From Alphaproteobacteria bacterium 46_93_T64 (GTDB lineage Bacteria > Pseudomonadota > Alphaproteobacteria > Sneathiellales > Sneathiellaceae), in NCBI GenBank assembly GCA_002163135.1, contig MAAN01000035.1:1-64000 (forward strand): a DNA stretch of 64,000 nucleotides, read 5' to 3'. The notes beneath the pieces were generated by a model. It ran no database searches. It was not told the origin of the DNA and was given only the letters and a program-made list of their open reading frames with translations. Shown here in pieces: positions 6,789 through 34,280 of the stretch. How positions within the stretch are numbered: the first letter of the stretch is position 1; each line of letters opens with the position of its first letter. The position numbers and the translations under genes are program-made.

Positions 6789-8072
6789 TCACATCCCCAG
6801 TCGGTCCGCCAATCTGTGCCATCCAAGAACCATCGGCATGAACCACGGGGATCCGTTATAAAATGCTTTTCCCTTAAGCGGCATGTCATCAAAGGATGTA
6901 TGCCCCAATTCTTCTTGGCCCAAAATCTTGTGTCCCAGCTTTTTCCCGAAATATGTAGAGCGAGCCACACCGGATCCGCAATATCCCATAGCAAAATGGA
7001 GGCCGCCAATTTTACCAATATGCGGTGAATGATCGAATGTATAAGCAACAAGTCCGGACCACACGTGACTTATTTCAGTGTTTCCAAGCTCCGGATATAT
7101 CTCACTCATGGACCTGTGAAGCAGTGCCGCATTCTTCTCAGGCGTGTCTTTCAGGCCTGTTGCACGACCCCCAAACAGAATACGGCTCCCGTCTGGAGAT
7201 GGACGGTAATACGCGACAAGTCGTCGACTATCCCCGTACATACGCCCTTTCGGCATAAGACGTTTCATCACTTCTGGCGCTAAGGGCTCCGTTGCAATTA
7301 GGGCGCTTCGCAGCGGTAGAATCCGGCGTTTGAACTCGCCAAATGCCGACCCTGTATATCCATTCGTACAAATGGCGACCTGATCTGCAATCGTTTGACC
7401 TTTGGACGTTGATATTGCGAAACCAGCCGCTGATTTTTCCACTTTTTCAACAGGCGTGTGGTCAAAGAGCAAAACACCGGCTTCGCGAACTTTGTCCACG
7501 AGGCCCGAATGATATTTACCCGGATGAAGCCCACCATCCTGATGAAAAACGAGTCCTCCATAAAACTTGTCTGATCCGGTTTCATTCTCCAGATCATCTG
7601 CTGACACCATTTCACCCTTAACGCCGCACGCCGTTTGAAGCTCTTCCAATCCTACCGCCATCGTCTCAAAATGCGCAGGCTTTAAGGCACCCAAAAAACG
7701 CCCTGTTCTTTTAAATTCCGCGTCGATACCTTCTGTCTTCAGGAAATCTTCGAGAAAATCAACAAAACCAACGCTTTCTCTCAAAATTTCGTTGGTTTTC
7801 TCCGCGCCAAATTGCGCCTTCAGTCCAGCAATTCCGAGTTTGTGAAAACTTGGACCCACCATGCCACCATTTCTGGAGCTAGCCCCCTCGCCCAGTTGCC
7901 CCGCTTCAAAAACTGCGACAGACAAGCCAGCACGCGCGAGTACTAGAGCCGCGGACAATCCGGTAAATCCAGCGCCTACAATGGCAATATCCACATTTGC
8001 TGGCGGCGTCATATTCGACGCCTGTTCACGTGGTGCTTCTTCCCACCAATAGGGTGTGGTTTTCATGGACAT
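6789..8072 (-). CDS. FAD-dependent oxidoreductase, gamma-glutamylputrescine oxidase-like
   Basis: A 427-residue flavoenzyme of the DAO superfamily. The N-terminal extension SMKTTPYWWEEAPRE precedes the dinucleotide motif IAIVGAGFTGLSAALVLARAG, a hallmark of PuuB/OrdL-like oxidases. SSRNGGMVGPSFHKLG marks the FAD isoalloxazine region, and the C-terminal HIGKIGGLHFAMGYCGSGVA the second FAD contact. PuuB acts in putrescine degradation; no other puu genes are adjacent, so the substrate is open. A GAGGGAG Shine-Dalgarno lies about 11 nt upstream of the chosen ATG; a second Met two codons later is equally possible. Confidence 0.87.
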   Translation of the reverse strand: MSMKTTPYWWEEAPREQASNMTPPANVDIAIVGAGFTGLSAALVLARAGLSVAVFEAGQLGEGASSRNGGMVGPSFHKLGIAGLKAQFGAEKTNEILRESVGFVDFLEDFLKTEGIDAEFKRTGRFLGALKPAHFETMAVGLEELQTACGVKGEMVSADDLENETGSDKFYGGLVFHQDGGLHPGKYHSGLVDKVREAGVLLFDHTPVEKVEKSAAGFAISTSKGQTIADQVAICTNGYTGSAFGEFKRRILPLRSALIATEPLAPEVMKRLMPKGRMYGDSRRLVAYYRPSPDGSRILFGGRATGLKDTPEKNAALLHRSMSEIYPELGNTEISHVWSGLVAYTFDHSPHIGKIGGLHFAMGYCGSGVARSTYFGKKLGHKILGQEELGHTSFDDMPLKGKAFYNGSPWFMPMVLGWHRLADRLGM

Positions 8073-28273: not shown

Positions 28274-30700
28274 ATGCAAAGCCAAGCCAGAGTTGTCATT
28301 ATCGGAGGCGGTATGATGGGGGCAGGTCTTCTGTATCATCTGGCTGAAGAAGGTTGGACAGATAGTTTACTCCTAGAAAAAGGAGAACTGACATCTGGCT
28401 CCACTTGGCATGCGGCAGGACAATGCCCAAGTTTCATCGCCGACTATAATATGGCGAAGATCCATCATTACGGAAATACCCTCTACCCTAAGTTAGAAGA
28501 AATGACCGGGCAGTATGTGTCTTGGCATGGGTGTGGCGGCATTCGTTTTGCCATGAATGAGGCTGAACTGGAATGGTTCAAGCATGTTCAAGGCGTCTCA
28601 AAATTAATTGGTTTCGAGATGCATATTCTAGGACCGGATGAAATAAAGAAATATAACCCGCACGTTGATGTCACGGGTGTAATTGCGGGTGCGCTTACTA
28701 TTGGCGATGGCCATGTCGATCCATCCGGATGTTGCAATGCATTGGCGACCGGGGCTCGGAATTTTGGCGCCAAAATTGAACGATTTACGCGGGTTCTTGA
28801 TATTCAAGCGGCTCCCAACGGTGAATGGGATGTTATCACCAACAAAGGCACCGTTCGGTGTGAACATGTTGTAAACGCTGCAGGTTGTTACGCCCGGCAA
28901 ATATCTCAAATGGTCGGTACGGATGTGCCGATTACGAATATGGAGCATCATTACCTCATTACCGAGCCAATTCAGGAATTTATTGACAGTGACGTTGAGA
29001 TGCCAGTGATGCGGGATCCTTCGGCTTCGGCTTATTATCGACAAGAGCAAAAATCAGCTCTTATTGGTATCTATGAAACTCATGTCGGAACTGAAGCTTG
29101 GTCTCATCGTGGCGGATGGCCTGAATGGGAGTCTGAAAGCGAGCTTTTTGATCCTGATATGGATCGTATCCTACCTTATGTTGAAAAAGTATTGGATCGC
29201 ATGCCAATTTGGGCCAATGCAGGCATCAAAAGAATTGTAAATGGGGCAATACCGCATACACCAGACGCTAATCCATTACTCGGACCAGCCATGGGCGTAA
29301 AGAACTTCTGGCACTGTTGCGGATCTGCGATTGGCATTGCCCAAGGAGCTGGTTGCGGAAAATACCTCGCTCAATGGATGATATACGGAGATTCCGAAAT
29401 TAACATGGCGGGTCTTGATCCACGCCGTTTTTGCGGGATGAGTACAGATGATTGGGTGAAGAATAAATCTTTTGAAGACTACACTCACATGTACAAACTT
29501 CATTTACCGGGTGAAGAGCGGGACGCGGGACGCTGCATGCGACAATCAAGCCTCTATGATAAATTGAAGGCCAAGGGAGCCGTTTATACAGAAGCCGCAT
29601 CTTGGGAGCGCCCCAAGTGGTTTTCCCTTGATGGCCGGGTCGAGGACACAGTTTTCGGCAGAACCAATGTTCATGATGTGGTCGGTGCCGAATGCCGTGC
29701 AGTTCGCGAAAGGGTCGGCGTTATGGATCTCTCGAGCTTCGCCAAATTTGACGTTCGAGGTGCGGATGCGCGCTCATTCCTCAATCGTATTACAGCCAAT
29801 AGAATGTCCCAAAAATCCGGCGGTATAACGCTGACGCACTTTCTTGGCGATAACGGTATGATCAAAGGGGAAGCAACGATTACCCGGCTTGCGGATGATC
29901 ATTTCTATGTTCTATCGGGAGCCTCTGCTCAGCATCGCGATTTGGATCATCTTCGGTTACAAATTAACCCTGACGAAGCGGTCACGGTTGATGACATAAC
30001 GGATGACTGGGGTGTTCTCGTCGTTGCTGGTCCAAACTCTCGTGACACATTGGAGACAATAACAGCGACTGATTTGACCAATGATAATTTCCGGTGGCTT
30101 ACTGGTCAGGAAATCAACATTGCAAATATTTCTCTTCGGGCATTACGGGTTAATTATGTCGGCGAATTGGGATGGGAACTTCATGTCCCGATGGCGCAGT
30201 TGCCGGAACTTTATGACGCTGTCTGGGCTGCGGGTGCTGAATATTCGGTAGCCGATGTAGGAACTTACGCGGTGAACTCCTTGCGCTTGGAAAAGGCGTA
30301 TAAAGGGTGGGGCGCAGAACTGACTAACGAAATCACCATGATTGAAGCCCAATTGGAGCGTTTTATCAAATATGAAAAAGACGATTTCAAAGGCAAAGCC
30401 GCGACCTTACAAAGGAAGCAAGATGGCATCGAAACACAGTTAGTTTACTGCCAAGTAGAGACTACTAACCATGATGCACGCGGCGGCGAGGTCGTTACAA
30501 AAAATGGAACCGTTATTGGTGTTACCACATCGGGTGGATACGGCCATTTCAGTGAAACAAGCCTTGTTTTCGCATACGTCAAACCAGAACATGCAAACCC
30601 GGGGACAATTTTTGAAATTGAAATATTGAATATTCCCTACAAAACAACCGTCTTAGAAAACCCTGTATTTGACGCTCAAAACAAACGATTGAGAGCTTAA
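28274..30700 (+). CDS. Dimethylglycine dehydrogenase-like flavoprotein (DAO + GcvT domains)
   Basis: An 808-residue enzyme predicted to oxidatively demethylate an N-methyl amine, with the formaldehyde unit passed to tetrahydrofolate. Residues 1-400 are the DAO fold: FAD motif VVIIGGGMMGAGLLYHLAE, then SGSTWHAAGQ, whose His (about residue 46) matches the covalent-FAD His of mitochondrial dimethylglycine dehydrogenase. Residues about 420-780 are a GcvT/aminomethyltransferase-like folate domain (GVMDLSSFAKFDVRGADA, YVGELGWELHVP, SLRLEKAYKGWGAELTNEIT). A TTG at 28262 would add four residues; the ATG at 28274 has a GGAG site 8 nt upstream. Last gene of the island operon; it probably acts on the imported compound. 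Confidence 0.9.
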   Translation: MQSQARVVIIGGGMMGAGLLYHLAEEGWTDSLLLEKGELTSGSTWHAAGQCPSFIADYNMAKIHHYGNTLYPKLEEMTGQYVSWHGCGGIRFAMNEAELEWFKHVQGVSKLIGFEMHILGPDEIKKYNPHVDVTGVIAGALTIGDGHVDPSGCCNALATGARNFGAKIERFTRVLDIQAAPNGEWDVITNKGTVRCEHVVNAAGCYARQISQMVGTDVPITNMEHHYLITEPIQEFIDSDVEMPVMRDPSASAYYRQEQKSALIGIYETHVGTEAWSHRGGWPEWESESELFDPDMDRILPYVEKVLDRMPIWANAGIKRIVNGAIPHTPDANPLLGPAMGVKNFWHCCGSAIGIAQGAGCGKYLAQWMIYGDSEINMAGLDPRRFCGMSTDDWVKNKSFEDYTHMYKLHLPGEERDAGRCMRQSSLYDKLKAKGAVYTEAASWERPKWFSLDGRVEDTVFGRTNVHDVVGAECRAVRERVGVMDLSSFAKFDVRGADARSFLNRITANRMSQKSGGITLTHFLGDNGMIKGEATITRLADDHFYVLSGASAQHRDLDHLRLQINPDEAVTVDDITDDWGVLVVAGPNSRDTLETITATDLTNDNFRWLTGQEINIANISLRALRVNYVGELGWELHVPMAQLPELYDAVWAAGAEYSVADVGTYAVNSLRLEKAYKGWGAELTNEITMIEAQLERFIKYEKDDFKGKAATLQRKQDGIETQLVYCQVETTNHDARGGEVVTKNGTVIGVTTSGGYGHFSETSLVFAYVKPEHANPGTIFEIEILNIPYKTTVLENPVFDAQNKRLRA

Positions 30701-30750
30701 GCAAGTTCCAAAATAACGTTAAACTTGCGAAATTCGCCTGCCAATATCAC

Positions 30751-30772
30751 TGGTTGCGGGGCCCCGCAACCA
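30751..30772. repeat. Perfect 22-bp palindrome after the dimethylglycine dehydrogenase-like gene
   Basis: TGGTTGCGGGG and its exact reverse complement meet without a spacer, 50 bp past the stop codon. In RNA it could form an 8-9-bp GC-rich hairpin, so it may act as the end of the catabolic operon although there is no T-run. Confidence 0.5.
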
Positions 30773-30787
30773 CACTACGAAATTTGA

Positions 30788-31039
30788 AAGGCGTTCTCTT
30801 CCTTCGCCGGTGTAGATCCAATCCGGAGCAAAGGGTTTGATTTCGCACAAAATGCAGATTTGAGTGGCTGGCAGAGCAAGATGTTCGGTATTGGAGCCCT
30901 ATATGATGAGGATGACTTCTATATAGAATCCATTAGTGTAACGGCTGTACCCTTGCCGCCGTCGATCTTATTGTTAGGTGCTGCAATGATTGGCGGAGGG
31001 TGGTTGTCTCGCCGTAGAAAACAGGCAAGCGCCATTTGA
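30788..31039 (+). pseudogene. Remnant of a VPLPA-CTERM protein gene
   Basis: An open frame of 83 codons without a plausible start follows an in-frame TGA at 30785. It reads like the C-terminal third of a secreted VPLPA/PEP-CTERM protein: a domain end (ALYDEDDFYIESISVTA), then the sorting signal VPLPPSILLLGAAMIGGGW and the basic tail LSRRRKQ. The motif, hydrophobic helix and Arg/Lys tail match the two intact proteins at 31.5 and 32.7 kb. The N-terminus with signal peptide is missing, so the gene looks truncated, possibly by the rearrangement that placed it beside the catabolic operon. Confidence 0.7.
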
Positions 31040-31061
31040 TTAATAAGATTTAGTTCACTTT

Positions 31062-31090
31062 AAAAGGGCAGCCTTCGGTTGCTTTTTTTT
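31062..31090 (+). terminator. Rho-independent terminator after the VPLPA-CTERM remnant
   Basis: GCAGCC/GGTTGC stem extended by AAAA/TTTT, a 3-nt loop and a run of eight T. The sequence after the T-run (GTGGGTTGT) resembles that after the two intact VPLPA-CTERM genes. Confidence 0.8.
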
Positions 31091-31491
31091 GTGGGTTGTA
31101 AGGTTTCTTGTTGTGTCTTCAGTTTAAGGGTGTGAAAGGGTGAGTGTTCGGCATTCTATGGTTGATATACACCTTGATTCGAAGGCAATTTGTGTAATAA
31201 TTTGTATTATGATTTCATAAATACAGTTAGAGCTCGGCAATAAATGCCCGATATATGGTTAATACCATACTACTTCTTAGATATATAAGATAATTGCCCA
31301 GAAACCCCTGTAAGAATTATTTTCCTAATTGACAGTCCCAGTAGTTGCTCGTGATAATACAATTAATAATTTGTTAACGTTTTTGTAACAGTGCCACTCT
31401 CCGGCACGTTTTCCCTAGTATCAAGTAGTGGTTATTCAAGTGCCAGTATAGGCGCTGCCGTGTCATTGCGGGTTTTATGGAGAATGAATCA
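31091..31491. other. AT-rich intergenic region upstream of VPLPA-CTERM gene 1
   Basis: About 400 bp without a credible gene. It is notably AT-rich between 31180 and 31390. A short GTGCC/GGCAC repeat lies at about 31391-31407. No -24/-12 sigma-54 promoter of the kind known for some PEP-CTERM genes could be made out. Confidence 0.5.
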
Positions 31492-32142
31492 ATGAAGAAA
31501 CTACTGTCAGTTGCCATTATTGGATTAATGGCCATGTTTGTAAGTACAACAGTAAATGCTGCGACGTTGTCCTTGGTTGGTGGAACTGCTAATCACGCTC
31601 TTCCAGCGAATTTTAGTGCGGGGCCATTGTGGGCAACGGGTCTCAATCCCAACGACTTGGTGACTACTTTTGATAGTAGTACTGATGGAGAAGGACTAAA
31701 ACTCTTAGGTACTGGGTCTGTAACAATTCAATTTGAGTATCTTGGGTCAGAGGCCGGTAACACTAACCAAGCGTTCGAAATAAGCACTGGAAGTAATTTC
31801 TTATTCAACAATAAGACGTCTAGTGTTGGAGACACCGTGAATGTTGTTCTAACTGCCAGTGGCGGATTTTTACCCTTTAGCTTTACAACATCCGGCGGCG
31901 GCGGACAAATAGCAGAGAATGGTTACATTCAAGACCCACTTGCAATCGCGTTTTCTGAATTGGTAAATAATTATTCGACAATTGCACTGTTTGGGGATGG
32001 TGCAGGGGACCATGACTTTGATGATATGGCAATCCGTATTTCGGTTGTTCCCCTTCCTGCCGCGCTTCCATTATACGGGGCTGGTGTTGCCTTGCTCGGA
32101 TTTTTGGGATGGCGCAGGCGCAAGGCTGAAGCCGCTGCATAA
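31492..32142 (+). CDS. VPLPA-CTERM sorting domain protein 1
   Basis: A 216-residue secreted protein of unknown function. The signal peptide (KKLLSVAIIGLMAMFVSTTVNA) is followed by a Thr/Ser/Gly/Asn-rich, almost Cys-free domain. The end is the sorting signal VPLPAALPLYGAGVALLGFL plus basic WRRRK. This tripartite end is the VPLPA-CTERM variant of PEP-CTERM, known to be recognised by an exosortase (XrtD type) with products that reach the surface. FGDGAGDHDFDDMAIRI just before the motif is typical of such proteins. The ATG at 31492 has a GGAGA site; an upstream Met at 31477 is less likely. Confidence 0.88.
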   Translation: MKKLLSVAIIGLMAMFVSTTVNAATLSLVGGTANHALPANFSAGPLWATGLNPNDLVTTFDSSTDGEGLKLLGTGSVTIQFEYLGSEAGNTNQAFEISTGSNFLFNNKTSSVGDTVNVVLTASGGFLPFSFTTSGGGGQIAENGYIQDPLAIAFSELVNNYSTIALFGDGAGDHDFDDMAIRISVVPLPAALPLYGAGVALLGFLGWRRRKAEAAA

Positions 32143-32164
32143 ATAATCAATTAAGTACATTTTG

Positions 32165-32194
32165 AAACGGTGGCCTTCAGGGCGGCGTTTTTTT
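32165..32194 (+). terminator. Terminator after VPLPA-CTERM gene 1
   Basis: AAACGGTGGCC pairs imperfectly with GGGCGGCGTTT around a TTCA loop and is followed by a T-run. It is the degenerate counterpart of the stronger hairpin after VPLPA-CTERM gene 2. Confidence 0.7.
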
Positions 32195-32700
32195 GTTGGG
32201 GTCTGCCTATGACCGAGATGCCTTTCTGGTCCAGTGGCTTCAAAGGCTTCAATGGCTTTGCGAACTTTATCGAACATTCGGGGTCGTTGATCGAAATCAG
32301 CATGGCGCTATATTGGAAGAAACGGGCTGCGCGTCTTTAGTGCACGGACAACTCACTAACGAAACAGCCCGCTTTCTTTAAAGCGATTCACAGTAGAATT
32401 GTTTTGTGGTTTTCACAACGTGAAGGGTCTTGTCATTTATGCCCATGCTAGACCTACTATGAGCGTACCGTTAACCATACCAACGGCCAATTTTCAACAT
32501 ATTCATGAAATATATTCTACAAATATGGCTTTGATCAGGATATGTCCTAAATTTTGCTTGTTCATCAAATTCAAATTTATTAATATATTGTTAGTAAACG
32601 ATTATTTTTGTTCGATTACTAACAATTGAATACTGTCCACAGATGTGTTTTGCACCCAAAACGATGCGAGCAGCTCCGTAGACCAAAGGGAGGGATTAAA
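32195..32700. other. Region between the two VPLPA-CTERM genes
   Basis: No recognisable gene. The first 45 bp (TTGTTGGGGTCTGCCTATGA and following) resemble the sequence after VPLPA-CTERM gene 2, indicating duplication. A GAAACGGGCTG/CAGCCCGCTTTC inverted repeat with a long loop lies at about 32318-32376. The rest up to the ribosome site of the next gene is AT-rich. Short open frames on both strands here have no family resemblance. Confidence 0.5.
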
Positions 32701-33570
32701 ATGAAAACAATAAAATTTATCGTTGGGTTTGTCGCAATTTGCACAACTTTAACAGCAACAAATGCATTAGCCACTGCCGTTCAGGTTGGCGGATTTGATG
32801 CCACTTATACGGCCGATGATACTTGGTTTAAGTCTGACATGAGAGCAGGTGGCACTGCAGAGATCGTGGATTTAACGGGTTTGGGCGGTAATCTGGAAAC
32901 AAATCAGCCGCTGCCAACCGGGGTGGCAAAATTAACAACCGGGGCATCAAATTCTGATAAAGCAGAAGTCAGTATTATAAGGGACGGCGGCCATTACGGT
33001 ACAATTGGTGACTTTCTCACCGGTGGGATGTTGTCCTATGATTACCATAAACAAGGTGCAGGCGACTTAAACCCATCAGCGACGGCCGCCATCAAGTTTA
33101 CAGTACTTGATTTGAACACGACTCAATCGGACGGATATACAACATTCGTCTTCGAACCGACTTGGAACCTTGGAACCCCTGGAACCTCTGTCGTTACACC
33201 AACAGATACTTGGACGCAGGGAACGGTTACAGGGAGTGCCGGCATCTTGTGGCACACCGGCCTTTATGGTGCTGGAAATCTCGCCGGAAATGGCTCAAAT
33301 GGCAACACACTTTCAGACTGGGTTGGTGTTTTTGGCGACGATCTGTTAGATGCTTTTATCGTCGGCATTTCTGTTGGTGTAGGAACTTATAATCAGGGGC
33401 AGACAGCTTTTTTTGATAACGTTAAATACCTGAATGGCGCAGTAGATCTGGCCTATGATTTTCAACCTTCTGTTGTACCATTGCCTGCCGCCCTTCCTCT
33501 TTACGGTGCGGGCCTTGCGGTGATGGGCCTTGTCGGATTGCGGAAGCGCAAGGCTAAAGTCGCAGCATAA
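32701..33570 (+). CDS. VPLPA-CTERM sorting domain protein 2
   Basis: A 289-residue secreted protein of unknown function. The signal peptide KTIKFIVGFVAICTTLTATNALA is followed by a beta-rich domain (VQVGGFDATYTADDTWFKSD) with many Thr/Gly and few charges. The domain between 60 and 260 looks like a jelly-roll/concanavalin-type fold but cannot be assigned. It ends in VPLPAALPLYGAGLAVMGLV followed by GLRKRKAKVAA, nearly identical to the sorting signal of protein 1. A GGGAGG ribosome site precedes the ATG. The mature domains of the two proteins are not obviously alike, so only the tail and 3' flank are clearly shared. Confidence 0.88.
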   Translation: MKTIKFIVGFVAICTTLTATNALATAVQVGGFDATYTADDTWFKSDMRAGGTAEIVDLTGLGGNLETNQPLPTGVAKLTTGASNSDKAEVSIIRDGGHYGTIGDFLTGGMLSYDYHKQGAGDLNPSATAAIKFTVLDLNTTQSDGYTTFVFEPTWNLGTPGTSVVTPTDTWTQGTVTGSAGILWHTGLYGAGNLAGNGSNGNTLSDWVGVFGDDLLDAFIVGISVGVGTYNQGQTAFFDNVKYLNGAVDLAYDFQPSVVPLPAALPLYGAGLAVMGLVGLRKRKAKVAA

Positions 33571-33594
33571 ATAGTCAGATAAGTAATTTTTCTC

Positions 33595-33626
33595 AAAACG
33601 GCGTCCATTGGGGCGCCGTTTTTTTT
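33595..33626 (+). terminator. Strong terminator after VPLPA-CTERM gene 2
   Basis: A 12-bp stem (AAAACGGCGTCC against GGGCGCCGTTTT, one G-T pair) with a 4-nt loop and a run of eight T. Confidence 0.9.
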
Positions 33627-34280
33627 GTTGAGGGTTGTCTATAACAGAGATGCCCGTCCAGCCCTGTGACTCCTATGCCTGCCAAACTGTCGTCCAGATG
33701 CCGGATATCCACTGGACCTTTCAAATCTTAACCAGCGGATCTTGGATCCAAGCCTGTACATGTGAAAGTAAAAGGACTAATTGTGACGAAAATCGCGTTG
33801 GATAATGCGACAGCAAATATTGAAAGACGCTCAATTGGCACCGATACCTAGGTTCTTTTCCTGATGAGCGGAGTTGTGCCCGGTCAAGTGACGGATTGGT
33901 ACGAAAATTGGCAGCGAAATGTGAATCTCAATGACTATTTTGCCCATGTTCAGGCCAGCGAAAGCGAAGCCGCAGAGGAAACCTCCACAAAGGAACACGC
34001 GCAGAGAAATTGCCACGATTTCTTGTGCCAAGGGCCAAAAAGGTATTTGAAACCGATCCCTTCACCACCGGGCTTTTTTTCTGCTGGGCGAACGCTTGGA
34101 AAAGGCACATTTTGTGAACTTATCAATGGAGCGTTCAGATAATCGGAACCTATAAAGTATGATTAATTGCAATCCGGTATAATATTCAAGTCAGTCTTCT
34201 TAGAGTAAAAGTTGACGTTCGTTGAAAATTTAACGAATGGTTATTTCTGGCAACTCTTGGAACAAAGAGTAGCTAAGACA
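33627..34280. other. Intergenic stretch with decayed coding look
   Basis: About 650 bp with no intact gene I can support. From about 33769 to 34142 the plus strand reads as an open-like frame interrupted by a TAG at about 33849; it includes VTDWYENWQRNVNLNDYFAH but resembles no family I know. The first 45 bp repeat the sequence that follows VPLPA-CTERM gene 1. It may be a decayed gene. Confidence 0.4.

Follow-up and report, generated by a model that had tools for sequence, protein, structure and literature searches.

Three tail-bearing genes, one remnant (A) and two intact (B and C), lie head to tail on the plus strand of the window, as a preliminary description of this DNA had proposed; by the window we mean the whole stretch of 64,000 nucleotides that was analysed (G000:C1:1-64000, from a genome of 4.0 Mb in 41 contigs). 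Gene A (30788 to 31039) is an open frame of 83 aa that lacks its N-terminal part. Its last 30 aa form a VPLPP-type tail, VPLPPSILLLGAAMIGGGWLSRRRKQ, which as a 30-residue piece scores above the cut-offs of PF07589 and TIGR02595. The frame resembles the C-terminal part of G002_L165 (65% over 48 aa) and, within its own genome, that of a gene on contig C17 (51% over 65 aa).

Gene B (31492 to 32142, with a possible alternative start at 31477) carries a signal peptide, a mature domain of a DUF4114-like family and a tail of the VPLPAALPLYGAG type. Gene C (32701 to 33570) has a signal peptide and the same type of tail, and its mature domain belongs to a separate family for which Pfam gave no match. 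Both signal peptides are putative and were recognized by eye from a basic start, a hydrophobic run and A-x-A. The sorting tail of B, VVPLPAALPLYGAGVALLGFLGWRRRKAEAAA, is encoded at 32044 to 32139 and that of C, VVPLPAALPLYGAGLAVMGLVGLRKRKAKVAA, at 33472 to 33567. The homologous 3' flanks run from 32140 to 32250 for B (stop codon, short UTR, hairpin and T-run at 32165 to 32194, and up to about 56 nt past it) and from 33568 to 33682 for C (hairpin and T-run at 33596 to 33627, and up to about 55 nt past it).

A hairpin with a T-run had been reported after each of the three genes, and we find one in every case. The structure after A (31062 to 31090, plus strand; folded stretch 31056 to 31096) reaches -15.3 kcal/mol (z -3.4) and the one after C -19.7 kcal/mol (z -4.2). 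That of B is weak (-11.7 kcal/mol, z -1.5) and degenerate, since 12 of 200 shuffles fold equally well or better.

Tail genes of the genome and the genus

On whole proteins the VPLPA-CTERM profile TIGR03370 gives 10.1 bits for B and 16.9 bits for C, both below the cut-off of 25.35 bits; the tail of C alone reaches 25.0 bits. Run against the whole genome, the profile returns 23 matches at E<=10, two of which exceed the cut-off and one of which (L019) is false by its frame; A and B are absent from these 23. L019 was rejected as a tail gene, its frame being what we take to be that of an ABC permease. A profile built from 23 of the genome's own tails has 31 matches in it, fragments included. In the alignment of these tails, P, L, P and a later L are invariant, followed by a hydrophobic core and then an R/K cluster, so that they show the architecture of PEP-CTERM-type tails (motif, hydrophobic segment, basic cluster near the C-terminus); 22 of the 23 match the VPLPA profile at E<=1. 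Tails are present in 18 of the 20 genus genomes with a completeness of at least 84%.

For a wider comparison, 154 tail genes were extracted from 19 genomes. They were taken from the matches listed among 188 tail-profile matches in 20 genomes, and some, such as that of G017, came from other searches. Mature domains were clustered for 149 genes, with 5 fragments excluded, and tails were compared for 151, with 3 unparsed tails excluded. The 149 genes fall into 53 mature families, 20 of them with at least two members, and both tail types occur within 5 of these 20. Genes without a phmmer match at 1e-5 are treated as belonging to different families.

Extent of the likeness between B and C

Where does the likeness between B and C begin, and where does it end? 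Their 5' flanks compare at chance level (score 79; 95% point of the shuffles 109), and so does the coding part that precedes the tail and contains the signal (88; 95% point 96). The two genes are about 70% identical over a stretch that begins with the VPLP codons and ends some 110 nt beyond the stop codon: in steps of 24 nt, 4 to 11 positions agree throughout the 240 nt before the motif, and then 17, 16, 17 and 21. An independent repeat finder returned a direct repeat of 61 nt common to B and C that starts in the T-run (72%) and another of 30 nt in the terminator (80%). The stretch from stop codon to hairpin scores 61, which was equalled in 5 of 5000 shuffles. A profile comparison of the mature parts yields a single match of 58 columns with a probability of 56, in keeping with the earlier impression that these domains are not obviously similar; B and C may share a remote fold.

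By these comparisons, homology of B and C is confined to the tail plus the 3' flank. The opposite outcome, mature domains as similar as the tails, had been named in advance as evidence of simple duplication, and it was not seen: the genes are at chance level upstream of VPLP and alike after it. The shared flank that the preliminary description assigned to genes 1 and 2, with a length of about 45 bp, belongs instead to genes 2 and 3 and extends over about 110 nt. It had also called both signal and 3' flank similar, which holds for the 3' flanks of B and C and fails for their signals at the DNA level. Among 11,144 flank pairs from different families, B-C ranks third and a tandem of Sneathiella glossodoripedis second, while ranks 1 and 4 look like one conserved convergent coding gene. 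The pair A-B, with flanks that are weakly alike, is found at rank 26 and A-C at rank 698, and gene A is not clearly a participant in the sharing.

Could convergence account for these results, with one exosortase shaping the tails and the flanks being alike because terminators are alike? Flanks from different genomes and different families do score fairly high via the terminator alone, and the likeness between L020 and L085 is mostly terminator. In tail coding DNA alone, B is closest to three genes of other genomes (0.76) rather than to C, so the source of its tail may be a gene other than C. When hairpins are masked, the B-C flank score drops to 26, fourth among same-genome pairs, with a mask that covered the hairpin of C but missed that of B. 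Against convergence, the 56 nt after the T-run of B and C give a score of 118, whereas the best of 5000 single-base shuffles reached 82. Together with the results on same-genome pairs below, this makes convergence very unlikely in our view, although likeness of the tails on its own can come from selection.

A pair of neighbouring genes in S. glossodoripedis

Two neighbouring tail genes of S. glossodoripedis (G005, locus L067) have their stop codons at 7391 and 8188 of that locus, near positions 191896 and 192693 of contig NZ_BAMS01000002.1, which the tested L067 stretches match letter for letter. Their mature proteins are 29% identical over 111 aa; the pair passes the filter for different families though the mature domains are distantly related. 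Over tail, UTR and terminator, 130 of 139 nt are identical. In steps of 20 nt, 2 to 8 positions agree in the 300 nt upstream, except for 11 of 20 just before the motif; from the motif to the T-run the values are 16, 19, 20, 19, 20, 18 and 17, and afterwards 5 to 6. The likeness sets in abruptly at the motif and breaks off just as sharply past the T-run, which counts against convergence. Because of this sharp-edged identity, tail, UTR and terminator look copied together, and to judge from the alignment they look like one recently copied piece. Since the sharing ends at or near the T-run, the expected end of the transcript, both here and in the pair L010/L085, RNA-templated copying is a possible step.

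Excess of similar 3' ends within genomes

Collecting the tail genes and aligning their 3' ends apart from the mature domains had been suggested as a check, and on the 154 genes of 19 genomes this comparison reveals an excess of same-genome pairs. Tail-plus-flank identity was computed for 149 genes, and removal of pairs with fewer than 100 aligned columns left 10,777 pairs. At a threshold of 0.72, which like the flank-score threshold of 145 was picked after the scores were known (other cut-offs were also computed), 8 of 1101 same-genome pairs from different families qualify against 5 of 9198 others. Pairs are not independent, and genome labels were therefore shuffled within tail type: none of 2000 shuffles equalled this count, and 1, 0, 0 and 0 of 2000 did so at 0.64, 0.66, 0.68 and 0.70. 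At 0.72 the number stays at 0 of 2000 without the S. glossodoripedis pair and becomes 2 of 2000 when B-C is also left out. Flank scores of at least 145 between different families are seen in 7 of 1198 pairs from one genome and in 5 of 9946 from two genomes (1 of 2000 shuffles).

That same-genome pairs exceed other-genome pairs argues against convergence, whereas the weaker outcome with masked hairpins argues for it. With hairpins masked, flank scores of at least 24 are reached by 10 of 1198 same-genome pairs and 26 of 9812 others (p 0.004), scores of at least 27 by 3 and 6 (p 0.065), and scores of at least 30 by 3 and 2 (p 0.011); the excess is thus weaker. As the comparison is one among tail genes, genome-wide composition or habits of terminator style could contribute to it.

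Four pairs stand out in G000: B-C, L010-L085, L009-L011, and L002 with a tail fragment near L018. L009 is a pseudogene with a front part like L002 (52% over 62 aa) and a 3' flank like L011. Further cases of tail-plus-flank sharing between different families, for which the preliminary description had proposed to look, thus occur in S. glossodoripedis as well as in G000. Each of the four pairs shares a different flank, with no common sequence or ends of the kind that mark a mobile element, and this speaks against a single such element. Phage and plasmid records of two collections gave no match to positions 30700 to 34200. The data favour recombination within the tail over a self-mobile module.

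Two other measures were set aside. Mean tail identity between families is 0.609 within genomes and 0.595 otherwise (permutation p 0.027), and tail codon identity is 0.298 and 0.277 (0 of 300 permutations); with tail identity barely higher within genomes, a genome-specific tail "dialect" was not retained as main evidence. A filter for upstream identity below 0.40 left 4 of 1101 same-genome pairs and 2 of 9198 others (p 0.0016) and was dropped, because the measure is at chance level up to 0.56.

Families of B and C and the change of tail

B and C each have homologues of their own in other genus genomes, with identities of 43 to 62% for B and 39 to 51% for C; in named genomes the best homologues of B are found in S. 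glossodoripedis and other Sneathiellales, and Sneathiella is very likely the genus to which G000 belongs. The family of B has nine other members, namely eight genus genes (with L056 and L059 merged) and L064 of a Sneathiellales MAG. Eight of the nine have a VPLPP tail and one, in G008, has VPVPAALPLF. In the family tree these 10 sequences form a group with 98/98 support, within which the tail type changes twice, once in B and once in the G008 gene; the six-member clade of B itself has a lower support of 83/79. As read from this tree, B changed its tail relative to its family. The tail-changed gene of G008 has a same-genome partner from another family, with 30 of 32 tail residues identical. Throughout the family of C, the VPLPAALPLYGAG tail is retained (C and three homologues, 4/4).

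These families bear on the possibility of a tandem duplication of the whole gene, after which the mature domains diverged very fast and selection held tail and terminator. B and C do adjoin, the weak profile match between them exists, and the mature domains of the S. glossodoripedis pair are distantly related. Against such a duplication stand the separate homologues of B and C, the different tail type of B's relatives, and a stretch past the terminator that is still alike although likeness upstream of the tail does not exceed chance. We consider it improbable.

The reading we prefer, with a probability of roughly 0.72, is that recombination within the tail exchanged tail and 3' flank between genes. 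Like many other genes of G000, B and C would encode secreted proteins that end in a tail recognized by an XrtD-type exosortase. This tail would be the sole stretch of DNA common to unlike members of this set, and because it is kept alike in all tail genes, recombination could start there and carry the 3' flank along. Gene conversion or a crossover between genes would begin in the region of the VPLP codons, and with the newly joined DNA would come its own stop codon, its terminator and 0 to 60 nt more. The front part of B, with its VPLPP-tailed relatives, would thereby have been placed before a VPLPAALPLYGAG tail and a flank that share their origin with those of its neighbour C. Recombination as the process, C or a copy of it as the source, and cleavage of the tails by XrtD are what we infer from these comparisons.

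This exchange by recombination includes a variant in which the front part moved: the signal and mature part of B were joined to a tail-terminator copy left by a duplicated C gene. In all five close relatives checked, B occupies a different locus and is followed by a convergent gene of 286 to 319 aa, and no second copy of B was found in G000; remnant A and the tail fragment near L018 are examples of tails that stayed behind. The S. glossodoripedis pair, by comparison, fits the copying of a 3' end between two standing genes, and we regard the variant as possible but tentative. The preliminary description had suggested a module of tail and terminator that can be attached to new secreted domains. 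B and C, S. glossodoripedis and the other pairs agree with this in part, while the part assigned to gene A and the likeness of the signals do not stand. That tail and terminator form a genome-wide 3' cassette, by which new secreted domains become sorted through recombination in the tail, is a somewhat doubtful extension.

DUF4114 is matched by 4 of 22 members of the B family, B itself not among them. The model of B (pLDDT 88.5) shows a weak likeness to LecB-type lectins (best E 1.9e-3, TM 0.37/0.54), a weak lead for this predicted fold. The single-sequence model of C is unusable (pLDDT 31), and searches of PDB sequences with profiles of B and C gave nothing below E 0.2.

Relation to known sorting systems

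In the LPXTG/sortase, MYXO-CTERM/myxosortase and GlyGly-CTERM/rhombosortase systems, one enzyme acts on many substrates with a common tail; their motifs and enzymes are other than those of VPLPA-CTERM. In the PEP-CTERM/EpsH system many unlike secreted proteins end in a short tail made up of a motif, a hydrophobic stretch and a basic cluster (Haft et al. 2006, PMC1569441), and the same architecture on otherwise unlike secreted proteins is found here. In the portions of that paper considered here, PEP-CTERM tails group by species, and the tail is described as a module some 24 residues long that undergoes paralogous expansion (PMC1569441). Tails as modules are hence already known. The same portions are silent on the DNA that follows the stop codon, on terminators and breakpoints, and on changes of tail inside a family, and the words "recombination" and "gene conversion" do not occur in the main text; the linked terminator, the breakpoints and the within-family tail changes are what the present case adds. 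A literature search for Sneathiella with exosortase returned no match, and among the matches listed no title or abstract opening mentions tail-plus-terminator exchange, which may still be in print.

The results provide DNA-level evidence for one route to the fast turnover of exosortase substrates, the exchange of 3' ends, which acts besides gene birth and loss. A protein's tail may be of another type than its family tree would suggest, which bears on the prediction of substrates. The S. glossodoripedis pair, on a public contig, is a clean and testable case.

The exosortase

The window holds no exosortase gene, as had been stated, and the whole assembly gave no match to PF09721 or to TIGR04152 (XrtD), the latter profile having been run on G000 alone. 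With TIGR04178 there are two matches below the cut-off, the better one in a PqiA-like gene; L024 was rejected as an exosortase, its reading frames being in our assumption PqiA-like. An enzyme matching PF09721 is present in 18 of 25 family genomes and in 17 of the 23 other genus genomes, and in 16 of these 17 the EpsH-type protein is an open frame of 513 to 589 aa, which by length and context we take to be XrtD. The system resembles VPLPA-CTERM/XrtD (TIGR03370/TIGR04152) in its tails (22/23 at E<=1) and in the EpsH-type enzyme of the genus; it differs in that most of the tails stay under the curated cut-off (2/23 above) and in the G000 assembly without the enzyme.

Why, then, does the assembly of a genome with so many tails lack the enzyme? 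In all six places examined, the exosortase lies beside a likely exopolysaccharide cluster, and the order in the genus (6/6) is that of genes presumably for a sugar transferase, Wzz and a tyrosine kinase, then the exosortase. Contig C17 of G000 has the sugar transferase (71% identity) and a VPLPP-tailed gene at its very end and stops 254 bases further on. Wzz and the kinase were not found in this genome by the method with which the sugar transferase query did match. Given this position of the sugar transferase and the tail gene, and with none of Wzz, kinase and exosortase found, we prefer an assembly gap to loss of the enzyme, and the missing exosortase probably lies beyond the contig end, a gap being the simplest reading; a joint deletion of the three genes is possible. 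Loss of the exosortase from a genome with about 30 tails and no match to PF09721 or TIGR04152 was set aside, since C17 ends at the expected place. The search for the gene, which the preliminary description had recommended, thus ended without a match in the assembly and with a contig end where the gene is expected. For the other side of the gap, an HlyD-like marker gene gave just 27 to 31% matches.

Among the 20 genus genomes with a completeness of at least 84%, all 16 that have an exosortase also have tails. Of the four without one, G018 and G023 have no tails, and the tail profile gives 3 matches in G012 and 31 in G000 (Fisher 0.03).

B, an intact tail gene on the forward strand, is predicted over 31492-32043 of the window to form an all-beta domain (structure model, pLDDT 88.5), and the model weakly resembles LecB-type calcium lectins. 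DUF4114 is matched by 4 of the 22 members of the B family. About 1 kb past the B homologues of S. glossodoripedis (L063) and two other genomes of the genus (L053 in G002 and L052 in G015) lies a VPLPAALPLY-tailed gene on the opposite strand.

A contig ends at the exopolysaccharide/exosortase locus (L044, C17:1-2799 of the same assembly), which holds a sugar transferase and a VPLPP-tailed gene; no Wzz, kinase or exosortase was found in the assembly.

The best TIGR03370 score belongs to tail gene L001 (C11, tail match 150587-150658), whose tail differs (VPLPAGIWLLGTGLFGL) and whose mature part is built from near-repeats of about 56 residues each. Pseudogene L009 (C11:119451-119537) has an L002-like front part and a 3' flank resembling that of L011, from which it is separated by 95 kb of C11. 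Immediately 3' of tail gene L018, a tail fragment without a gene (C24:117970-118047; L018, L120) reads TLPLYGAGLAA followed by an in-frame stop, and its 3' flank resembles that of L002. In the window, a GC-rich palindrome without a T-run, tggttgcggggccccgcaacca (30751-30772), lies directly 3' of the gene preceding A, the remnant tail gene.
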